A DNA stretch of 64,000 bases, from positions 1 to 64,000 of the forward strand of contig QLUR01000002.1 in NCBI GenBank assembly GCA_018725565.1, read 5' to 3'. This DNA is from Bacillota bacterium. Lineage in GTDB: Bacteria; Bacillota; Dethiobacteria; Dethiobacterales; Dethiobacteraceae. Of the stretch, positions 24,129 through 29,883 are shown piece by piece (the first letter of the stretch is position 1; every line of letters begins with the position of its first letter). A program made the position numbers and the translations under genes. The notes under the pieces were generated by a model. That model made no database searches, was not told the origin of the DNA, and was given only the letters and a program-made list of their open reading frames with translations.

Positions 24129-25175
24129 CTAAATTTGCAGCATTGGATAGCTGTCAATCAGCGGCGGCAGCGCTGAATCAAAGCGTTCGGCGAAAGTAGC
24201 AGCCAGTTTGTTGCTCTCCAGATAGCGTGGAATACCGTCCCCGGGAACGAGGAAATCAACTGAAAAGATGAGCCTGCTTTGGCCGTGAAATTCTAGCTGG
24301 CGCGTTAACTCCGCAAAGCCGGGAATTTTGTCGGCCAGCCCCGGCTTAAGCAGGGGCTGGCCGGTGTAGTCGGTTAGAGGCAGCTTCTTGTGCAGCTGGA
24401 GCAGGTCATGCCGGCAGCGGTAGAGGAAACGCTGACATACCGAGCCGTACGGACGGACAGCAAAGGCGGAAGAAGTACGCTCCGAAAAAAAAGGCATTTT
24501 ATGGACTACATGATCGGCCGGGCAGGCGTAGGGGTCACGATGATGAATAAATTCGCTGGCAATAAGCTGTCTGCCTGCAGGAAGTGCGGCCAGCAAAGAC
24601 GGAAGTTTGGCGTCAAGTTCGGCTTTTTGCCAGACGGTATAGGGGTGTCCCCCGTGACAGCGCCCTGCTGAACCAAAGGGATATTTCACAATCCAGACCT
24701 CTGCTTCGGACGGCGGCAGCAAGGGCTCACTATAACTGAAGTAATGCCTCTGCACCGGCAGCAAACGGAACAAGCTCTGCCGGTACAAAGCATCTGCCTG
24801 GTTTATTTTGCTGGAGAATTCCACCGGCAGAAAGCCGGAAAGGAGCGGGGCCCGGGAAGGTTTGCCAGGCGGCAGGCGGAGTGTGCAGAATTGAACGTCC
24901 AGCAGGGCAAACTTCTGCAGCTCCAGGGTCGGGAGGGCACTCTCCCGGCACAGTGTAACCTGCAAACCCTGAGCGGAGTATTGCTTGAACAGACCGGAAA
25001 TATTTTTTTGCTCAGAACCGAAAAGATACCAGGATGGATAAGGAGTGTTTTCTGCCCGGTATCTTTCAGCTCTGATGCGTTGTAAGTCCAGGTGCCGGTA
25101 AAGAGGTTCGGCCGATTTAACCCCTAAGGCGGCTGCCAGCAAACCGTCATGAACCGCAAGAACAACGCCTGCCAC
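24129..25175 (-). CDS. ATP-grasp-like protein (YheC/YheD-like, probably spore coat-associated)
   Basis: A 348-residue protein with an ATP-grasp core in the second half: the lysine/glycine-loop segment WIVKYPFGSAGRCHGGHPY near residue 165, LIASEFI, and the metal-binding end SVDFLVPGDGIPRYLESNKL with acidic D and E/N ligands near 310-330. The first half resembles the N-terminal region of YheC/YheD-type endospore coat proteins. The substrate is unknown. It starts on GTG 25175, four bases after the stop of a 53-residue gene, which implies translational coupling because no clear ribosome site precedes it. Spore coat genes lie immediately upstream, supporting a sporulation role by context. Confidence 0.7.
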   Translation of the reverse strand: MAGVVLAVHDGLLAAALGVKSAEPLYRHLDLQRIRAERYRAENTPYPSWYLFGSEQKNISGLFKQYSAQGLQVTLCRESALPTLELQKFALLDVQFCTLRLPPGKPSRAPLLSGFLPVEFSSKINQADALYRQSLFRLLPVQRHYFSYSEPLLPPSEAEVWIVKYPFGSAGRCHGGHPYTVWQKAELDAKLPSLLAALPAGRQLIASEFIHHRDPYACPADHVVHKMPFFSERTSSAFAVRPYGSVCQRFLYRCRHDLLQLHKKLPLTDYTGQPLLKPGLADKIPGFAELTRQLEFHGQSRLIFSVDFLVPGDGIPRYLESNKLAATFAERFDSALPPLIDSYPMLQI

Positions 25176-25180
25176 CGGGG

Positions 25181-25342
25181 TTAGCGTCCCAGCAACTTCT
25201 CCCAGTAGCGGCGGAAGACAGAACTATGACTCTTGCTTGGCGGCGCTGGTACCGGTTCTGCGGCTTTCATGGGCCACATCTCCTGAGCGATCTCCAGATC
25301 CGCATCATCTGCAGAACTCCATGGTTCGGGATAGAAGGCCAC
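25181..25342 (-). CDS. Small 53-residue protein coupled to the ATP-grasp gene
   Basis: An open frame from GTG 25342 to TAA 25181-25183, behind GAGGGGGG with nine bases of spacing. The product begins VAFYPEPWSSADDADLEIAQ, has a proline-rich middle (EPVPAPPSK) and a basic aromatic end (SSVFRRYWEKLLGR). No membrane helix or Cys. Its stop lies five bases before the GTG of the downstream ATP-grasp gene, so it probably drives that gene's translation. I do not recognise the family; composition, ribosome site and tight spacing argue that it is real. It could be a coat peptide or the ATP-grasp substrate, both speculative. Confidence 0.6.
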   Translation of the reverse strand: MAFYPEPWSSADDADLEIAQEMWPMKAAEPVPAPPSKSHSSVFRRYWEKLLGR

Positions 25343-25428
25343 CTTAATCCACCCCCCTCGTTTGCGAAAAGTTGGCTGCTGCCACTTAGTATTCGCATTT
25401 TTTATTGAAATAATTTTGTATTTAAAAT

Positions 25429-25452
25429 AAAAAAGGGCCTCCGCCCTTTTTT
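25429..25452. terminator. Bidirectional rho-independent terminator
   Basis: AAAAAAGGGC (25429-25438), CTCC loop, GCCCTTTTTT (25443-25452): symmetrical A and T tracts. It ends the leftward CotF-type transcript and separates it from the 53-residue/ATP-grasp pair. Confidence 0.85.
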
Positions 25453-25459
25453 ATTTGCT

Positions 25460-25726
25460 CTACTGCAGCTGATTGGGAGAAAACTGGTTCTGGGCCTGGC
25501 TGATTTGCTGCATATCAGCTTTGGCCGGAGAGTACCAGCCTTTTTGGTTCATCGCGTCAAAGACCTGTTTTTGCACGCGGTAAGAACCTTGCTGGCAGTT
25601 CATCCAGTCACGGCGCAGATTATCACTTGAAGCTTCCAGGATGGAAGTATTGATCATGCCGCAGATGAATTTCTCATCTCTCAGGATGCACTGGGCAATA
25701 TCCTGGTCGGTTAATTTTTGTGCCAC
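25460..25726 (-). CDS. Spore coat protein, CotF family
   Basis: An 88-residue helical protein matching the CotF-type spore coat family: KLTDQDIAQCILRDEKFICG, then INTSILEASSDNLRRDWMN, and a Gln-rich end (MQQISQAQNQF). CotF-type proteins are assembled into the spore coat by the mother cell. GTG 25726 has AAAGGAGG eight bases upstream. It is 18 bases downstream of a related coat-like gene and ends at a strong terminator. Confidence 0.88.
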   Translation of the reverse strand: MAQKLTDQDIAQCILRDEKFICGMINTSILEASSDNLRRDWMNCQQGSYRVQKQVFDAMNQKGWYSPAKADMQQISQAQNQFSPNQLQ

Positions 25727-25744: not shown

Positions 25745-25945
25745 TTACTGCAGTGTTCCGGCAGCAAGGTGTTTTACCATAGTCTGGTAATTTTGGCGGT
25801 GAGATTGGGCGCTGTCCTGGCAAAGTCGCTTGATTGAGGGGTCGGTACACTGGTCCGCAAAAAAGTTCATTGATTTGTAAGCCAGTTGCTCCGCCTTTAA
25901 AAAGTCCTCCAGATACAGCAGCTCGCGCTGGGTCAGATGATGCAT
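25745..25945 (-). CDS. Small helical protein related to spore coat CotF
   Basis: A 66-residue, all-helical protein (LTQRELLYLEDFLKAEQLAY and SIKRLCQDSAQSHRQNYQTM). The layout resembles the ferritin-like helical pair of CotF-type and other small coat proteins, and it precedes the CotF gene in the same direction with an 18-base gap. Start ATG 25945 behind AAGGAGGAG. A TATAAT lies about 60 bases upstream on this strand without a clear -35, as expected if a sporulation sigma factor is used; that is an inference. Confidence 0.75.
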   Translation of the reverse strand: MHHLTQRELLYLEDFLKAEQLAYKSMNFFADQCTDPSIKRLCQDSAQSHRQNYQTMVKHLAAGTLQ

Positions 25946-29040: not shown

Positions 29041-29883
29041 GTGGAATTTGATTTTTTCCAGCTTTTATGGTTGTTTTTGATTTTTTCTGCTTTAACTCCG
29101 ATGTTTAAACAGGCGCGGCTGGAGGCCGCCCGTATCCGCCTGATTCGCGAACTGGAACGCAAACGGGGAACCAGAGTCATTACCATCATTCACCGCCAGG
29201 AATCGCTTTCACTGCTTGGCATCCCGCTGACCAAATTTATTAATATTGAGGATTCCGAACAGGTGCTGCGTGCTATCCGGCTCACGCCGCTGGACATGCC
29301 TATCGACTTGCTGCTGCACACGCCAGGCGGGCTGGTACTGGCTTCAGAGCAGATTGCTCACGCCATAAAGAACCACCAGGCCAAGGTAACGGTTTTTGTC
29401 CCCCATTATGCCATGTCGGGCGGCACTCTTATTGCTTTGGCTGCCGATGAGATTGTAATGGACGGCAACGCGGTGCTTGGTCCGGTTGACCCGCAAATCG
29501 GGCGTTTTCCCGCTGTATCGATACTTAAGGCTGTAAAAGCCAAGGATGTCAATGAACTGGATGATGAAACGCTGATTCTTGGAGATGTGGCGGAAAAGGC
29601 GATCAGACAGGTGAAAAGCACGGTGACAGAGATTCTCGTCGAAAAGCTGGGGGAGGAAAAAGCCCTTGAGGTTGCCGTCCAGCTGACCGAGGGGCAATGG
29701 ACCCACGATCATCCCATTACTTGCCGGGAGCTGTCCGCTATGGGGCTGATTGCCTGCGGAATTTTGCCCAAAGAAATTTACGAACTGATGGATCAGTACC
29801 CCCAGCCGCTGCGCAGCCGTTTGTCGGTCCAGTACATCCCGGTACCTTACGAAAAACCGGGCAGGGGGAACAAGTCGGGCTGA
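29041..29883 (+). CDS. Membrane-anchored Clp-fold serine protease (SDH_sah family)
   Basis: A 280-residue protein of the SDH-type serine proteinase family related to SppA and ClpP. It has an N-terminal membrane helix (about 5-22; FFQLLWLFLIFSALTPMF), then the crotonase/Clp fold with PIDLLLHTPGGLVLASEQIA, the probable nucleophile Ser in HYAMSGGTLIALAADEIVM near residue 125, and DPQIGRFPAVS. Expected to cleave membrane or membrane-proximal proteins from the cytosolic side. GTG 29041 follows AAAGGAAGG. Last gene of the sirtuin / FtsA-like / protease operon. Confidence 0.9.
   Translation: MEFDFFQLLWLFLIFSALTPMFKQARLEAARIRLIRELERKRGTRVITIIHRQESLSLLGIPLTKFINIEDSEQVLRAIRLTPLDMPIDLLLHTPGGLVLASEQIAHAIKNHQAKVTVFVPHYAMSGGTLIALAADEIVMDGNAVLGPVDPQIGRFPAVSILKAVKAKDVNELDDETLILGDVAEKAIRQVKSTVTEILVEKLGEEKALEVAVQLTEGQWTHDHPITCRELSAMGLIACGILPKEIYELMDQYPQPLRSRLSVQYIPVPYEKPGRGNKSG

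Follow-up and report, generated by a model that had tools for sequence, protein, structure and literature searches.

A conserved small gene strictly paired with a divergent, predicted ATP-grasp gene in the Dethiobacter family and probably expressed in the forespore

A small gene upstream of an ATP-grasp gene

A 53-codon frame on the minus strand (25342..25181, GTG start and TAA stop) of the 64,000-nt stretch of DNA analysed here (the window) is a real gene. It adjoins every ortholog found of the downstream gene, whose product has a predicted ATP-grasp fold, and our tentative preference is to read the two as one forespore operon, encoding a new ATP-grasp ligase and a small protein that serves as its dedicated substrate.

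In the window sequence the small-gene GTG is preceded by a strong ribosome site, ACGAGGGGGGTGGATTAAG; the ribosome-binding site GAGGGGGG, as read from the sequence, occupies 25352..25359 (minus strand). The stop codon is followed after 5 nt by the GTG (25175) of the 348-codon ATP-grasp frame. A sequence-only reading had described this arrangement and proposed an unannotated, coupled small gene next to an ATP-grasp protein; the arrangement was confirmed on the sequence and the proposal gained support from the relatives, where the small-gene ribosome site was AGGGGGTG or GGAGGTG. Neither protein has a Pfam or NCBIfam family model (for the peptide, neither database returned anything relevant at E ≤ 1), and the small gene is therefore likely to be overlooked by annotation.

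Conservation of the frame beside orthologs was the point on which the earlier proposal turned, and on this point it held. No internal stop or frameshift was found in the small frame of any of the 17 other family genomes having the ATP-grasp gene, and over the 18 aligned rows the peptide was 52–57 residues long, its length changing only in multiples of three. Synonymous and non-synonymous differences were counted, and pN was lower than pS in 153 of 153 peptide pairs, with a mean pN/pS of 0.31; an exception was the close, little-diverged pair L015/L017, with a ratio of nearly 0.7. The mean for the enzyme was 0.44 over 136 pairs, so purifying selection is stronger on the peptide than on the enzyme.

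In most relatives the peptide ends in AGG TGA or AGG TAA and the likely enzyme start follows about 1–8 nt later, so that the last peptide codons carry the ribosome site of the enzyme, which makes translational coupling plausible. For alignment the enzyme start was taken, by our judgement, as the next one after the GTG inside AGGTG, the latter being the first pick of the script in many relatives. In the window the AGGTGA is lost and a poor GGGA is kept within the last peptide codons. The ATP-grasp GTG, described earlier as lacking a ribosome site, thus has just the weak GGGA in the window; the relatives have a decent one.

Distribution of the pair

Both genes were present in 18 of the 19 genomes of the Dethiobacter family (Dethiobacteraceae). 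The 19th (G018, in 500 contigs) had neither gene and also no Spo0A match, so this gap may be an assembly artefact. In the first search of relatives the ATP-grasp gene was matched in 18 of 59 genomes, that of the window included, and a frame with a PEPW motif lay just upstream of it in all 18. When 97 genomes of the class were searched with profiles, 18 matched the peptide (E 6e-25 to 2e-34, one copy per genome) and the same 18 matched the enzyme; the 78 genomes outside the family gave no convincing match to either profile. Six genomes of a phylum sample of 398 matched both profiles well, all within the Dethiobacter family.

A separate scan of named genomes, in which a single-protein query found nothing and an alignment-based query gave 17 loci, had the peptide in 17 of 17. 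Sixteen of these were genomes already counted; the extra one, L067 (UBA3936), carries both genes and is in neither alignment. At L018, L019 and L074 (G011) unknown bases break into the ATP-grasp gene, so that the gene is probably split by a gap in the assembly and not truly broken; G011 was excluded from the ATP-grasp alignment because of this run of N and kept in the peptide alignment.

Several weak matches outside the family were set aside. Two peptide-profile matches in the class (E 0.06–0.08) look like chance, and three in the phylum sample (E 0.004–0.006, among 398 genomes) were weak; these out-of-family matches span 19–27 profile positions, and the ORF lists of two such loci (L078 and L079) showed neither an ATP-grasp gene nor a small gene of this sort. 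Matches to the ATP-grasp profile in G265, outside the family (E 0.008, positions 64–115), and in G009, where a second contig gave E 0.066, were treated as chance. The small frames upstream of PF14398 paralogs, listed mechanically, included nothing resembling the PEPW peptide by eye.

Genomic neighbourhood

Two genes lie upstream of the small gene on the same strand: a Coat_F domain gene (PF07875, 25726..25460, E 3.6e-18) and a second small gene that matches Coat_F weakly (25945..25745, E 0.041). A terminator-like symmetric hairpin on the minus strand (25425..25456; 14 pairs, −17.7 kcal/mol and z −5.5 by direct folding), not reported by a simple terminator scan, separates the Coat_F gene from the small gene and the ATP-grasp gene, and these two therefore probably constitute a separate unit. 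The two Coat_F-type genes were beside the pair in L005, in the window and in 7 of the 17 named loci; they went undetected in the available DNA of the other 10, where the pair was still together. The two genes thus keep to each other more than to coat genes, and the close association with coat genes on which the sequence-only reading had drawn is not supported.

Upstream of the two Coat_F-type genes (25745–25945 and 25460–25726) is a promoter-like GTATA-17-GATACTA site resembling that of SASP genes, which suggests that these two ‘coat’ proteins may be expressed in the forespore rather than in the mother cell. In the wider neighbourhood thiD, a membrane protein gene at 29041 and an amidohydrolase gene, named from their translations, accompany the pair in an order that is broadly conserved; the label sdpA for the membrane protein gene is a guess.

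Promoter and probable timing of expression

A conserved −10-like element, AATACTAA, is located at 25386..25393 (minus strand) upstream of the small gene and is common to the promoters of SASP and Coat_F genes; no recognisable −35 was seen with it in the window. The pattern [ACG]ATA[AC]TA was found upstream of the small gene in 18 of 18 cases (16 RATACTA, and GATAATA in L006 and L010). As controls, upstream regions of ORFs of at least 220 codons with a ribosome site were collected from the fetched loci and exact duplicates removed; of these 109 regions, 9 had the broad pattern and 1 had RATACTA (Fisher p 3e-17, a value that ignores relatedness).

The upstream regions of the family's SASP genes had G[ACT]ATA, 16–18 nt and then the same −10 in 19 of 29. 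Of the ten without the full site, a single one belonged to the first 20; the others were the nine members of a second group, for which the choice of start may be wrong. The full site was also present at the Coat_F gene pair in 8 of 9. None of the 18 small-gene promoters had the strict −35, G[ACT]ATA, at 16–18 nt; a looser G-H-A-N-N at that distance, a pattern picked post hoc, was found in 14 of 18 against 2 of 109 controls, and the window was without it. Direct control of SASP genes by sigma-G in C. difficile, and an A right after the −10 as a mark of sigma-G over sigma-F, are described in PMC3789822. By eye, such an A followed 14 of the 16 RATACTA sites.

The −10 common to SASP and Coat_F genes suggests forespore expression (of the sigma-G/sigma-F type) rather than expression with mother-cell coat genes, and by this likeness of promoters the pair is probably transcribed in the forespore. 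It also weakens the spore-coat location proposed earlier for the peptide, the promoter signature being that of forespore genes. As the strict −35 is missing, membership in the sigma-G/sigma-F regulon is a lead only. SASP matches were found in 19 of 19 family genomes and Spo0A matches in 18 of 19, so the pair occurs along with the potential to sporulate, and the two are not separable here.

Two further blocks were noticed in these upstream regions. Before the small gene's −35 region, at a distance of about 10–15 nt, most of L002–L019 have by eye a second conserved block, approximately TGCCAAAG followed by TTTA, which could be an activator site; it is absent from the window, L006 and L010. A conserved GGAAAACAATACTA lies about 65 nt upstream of the SASP genes at L100–L102, L105, L109, L115, L117 and L119, besides the sigma-G-like site.

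The small protein

Sixteen positions are invariant over the 18 aligned peptides, among them those of P-E-P-W, E-I-A and S..RR.WE.L, the last with S41, R44, R45, W47 and E48. The window peptide combines an acidic N-terminal part, with F-x-P-E-P-W and (D)xEIA, and a basic C-terminal helix, S..RRYWEKLL. It is among the most divergent of the 18 copies: it departs from the usual residue at Q20 (E in 17 of the 18 rows), W23 (S in 16) and K26 (E in 17). Over all rows the first 34 residues carry a net charge of −6 to −11, the remainder +2 to +6 and the whole −2 to −6. No row has a Cys, and the last residue is R in 16, I in one and G in one. Acids kept in 18 of 18 peptides are E6, E17 and E48, together with D/E columns at window residues 15 and 21; S41 is the sole Ser or Thr kept in all, and no Lys or Thr is conserved among the 18 rows.

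Modelled alone, the peptide was mostly unstructured with one helix at 42–52 (pLDDT 66.8, pTM 0.22), which fits a peptide whose folding depends on a partner. A likeness, seen by eye, of its C-terminal S-L-F-R-R-Y-W-E to the microviridin leader motif PFFARFL, as given in PMC8939145, was set aside, since it covers eight residues and lies at the opposite end of the peptide.

The ATP-grasp enzyme

The 348-residue product of the second gene (25175..24129, minus strand) had no meaningful match in Pfam or NCBIfam, and a sequence-profile search of the PDB was empty at E ≤ 10. Its AlphaFold model (pLDDT 85.6, pTM 0.83) gave 403 PDB matches at E ≤ 0.001 with Foldseek. The best 50 of the 403 were ATP-grasp proteins, as judged by title or by the identity of the chain (chain F of the tubulin complexes is tubulin tyrosine ligase); the microviridin ligase MdnC with its peptide ranked 49 among them. 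Structural comparison gave Z scores of 17.8 for ArgX (over 249 residues), 17.7 for RimK, 16.6 for glutathione synthetase, 16.5 for LysX and 15.8 for tubulin tyrosine ligase. Entries within 1 Z tie, so this ranking says ‘protein or peptide ligase type’ and not which. The enzyme is thus predicted to have an ATP-grasp fold nearest to protein-modifying ligases, and it is as a predicted fold that its naming as an ATP-grasp protein was borne out.

All 17 aligned enzymes share K123, K164, E208, D307, E320 and N322, which we presume to be ATP- or metal-binding residues. The D-13-E-2-N spacing is that of 16 YheC/D paralogs; the invariant D-x-R of these paralogs reads D-H-V in the enzyme (aligned by eye), so the substrate chemistry may differ. 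None of the 17 enzymes exceeded the cut-off of PF14398 (best E 0.09, in one member), and hhalign of the enzyme profile against the 16 paralogs gave 5% probability with E 0.0073. With both comparisons falling short, the enzyme is placed outside the YheC/D family as modelled, and the earlier description of it as YheC/D-like is not upheld.

PF14398 genes themselves were abundant in G008, G010, G004, G011 and G021, with up to 13 matches per genome and several clustered on one contig. The genome of the window had just two such matches, adjacent to each other on contig C58.

Proposed function and alternatives

The operon of two genes, probably transcribed in the forespore, would make a protein of 52–57 residues and a dedicated ATP-grasp ligase. 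The small protein would be translated first, from its strong ribosome site, and ribosomes finishing it would be placed to start the enzyme, so that more small protein than enzyme would probably be made. The ligase would probably activate a carboxylate with ATP as an acyl phosphate and join it to an amine or a hydroxyl. The small protein would be its dedicated protein substrate or carrier, with the basic C-terminal helix as a putative docking part and the modified site possibly close to one of the invariant acids E6, E17 and E48 or to the PEPW segment of the N-terminal part. We place this reading first, at a little less than an even chance, because the class of fold, the strict pairing, the conserved peptide, modelled as disordered, with its docking-like helix and the order with the small gene first are as expected from it.

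The same four features are also compatible with the small protein as a subunit that is not itself modified but stabilises, activates or localises the enzyme, whose real substrate would be elsewhere in the forespore or spore. We regard this as a serious possibility, at roughly one chance in three. In favour of a subunit, the pairing is strictly 1:1 and the peptide is strongly conserved from end to end, with no variable core; the basic helix would suit docking, and ATP-grasp enzymes that depend on a partner exist, as PMC13097080 reports. The strong small-gene site of the window against its weak enzyme site suggests an excess of small protein, which is better for a substrate; this argument is weakened by the decent enzyme ribosome site of the relatives.

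A graspetide precursor, in which the ATP-grasp enzyme joins side chains into macrolactone or macrolactam rings, is improbable. As in microviridin-type systems, a peptide gene adjoins an ATP-grasp gene, MdnC is among the Foldseek matches listed, and an invariant Ser (S41) occurs with invariant Glu (E6, E17 and E48). In contrast to those systems, the peptide is conserved along its whole length, with no evident variable C-terminal core or repeated pairs of nucleophile and acid; another column of Ser/Thr is interrupted by the Trp of the window (W23), conserved Lys or Thr residues are absent, and neither protein matches a graspetide model at E ≤ 1 in NCBIfam or Pfam. The neighbours annotated were those of the window, so a peptidase or exporter gene is conceivable among the other genes of the relatives. 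Graspetide membership, whose classic features (a variable core and several nucleophile/acid pairs) are not evident, is left unsupported.

Still less probable is a LysW-like carrier, on which the ligase and further enzymes would build amino acids. LysW has zinc-binding cysteines, an acidic tail and a C-terminal Glu. The pair resembles LysX/ArgX-LysW in that ArgX (Z 17.8) and LysX (Z 16.5) are among the nearest folds and a dedicated, small acidic partner is present (52–57 residues, net charge −2 to −6; LysW has about 55). It differs in the absence of any Cys for the LysW zinc site from the 18 rows, in a C-terminal Arg instead of Glu, in its probable expression during sporulation and, as far as the window genes traced show, in the lack of an accompanying amino-acid biosynthesis operon. 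Finally, it is scarcely credible that the small frame is a mere leader by which translation of the enzyme is tuned, or that it arose by chance: the end of the small frame does overlap the enzyme ribosome site, but amino-acid-level purifying selection along the whole frame, the invariant motifs and the length steps of three stand against it.

Relation to known systems

An ATP-grasp enzyme with a cognate small protein is an already known kind of system; what is new is that both proteins lack a family model and that the control is probably of the forespore type. RimK, a glutamate ligase acting on ribosomal protein S6, is a precedent for the modification of a protein tail by an ATP-grasp enzyme and shares the fold of the pair's enzyme (Z 17.7), but the latter has no sequence match to it (Pfam, NCBIfam, PDB profile) and its candidate substrate gene is adjacent and tiny. 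YheC and YheD (PF14398) are likewise ATP-grasp proteins of spore-formers, with the same D-13-E-2-N spacing and many paralogs in the same genomes. The pair's enzyme differs from them in falling short of PF14398, and in B. subtilis the genes of the mother-cell sigma-E/SpoIIID set include yheC and yheD (PMC517825), so that the pair would act in the opposite compartment.

With the coupled protein of about 55 residues as the substrate, the system could represent a sporulation-specific modification in which a forespore ATP-grasp ligase covalently modifies that protein, neither side having a described family and the setting unlike that of mother-cell YheC/D. This wider reading is somewhat doubtful. 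No publication on such a sporulation pair of small protein and ATP-grasp enzyme was found in the open-access PMC literature, and for the ATP-grasp proteins of spore-formers in PF14398 we know of no substrate. In the Dethiobacter family, a divergent ATP-grasp protein comes with a strictly co-inherited small protein, a ready-made candidate for its substrate or subunit.
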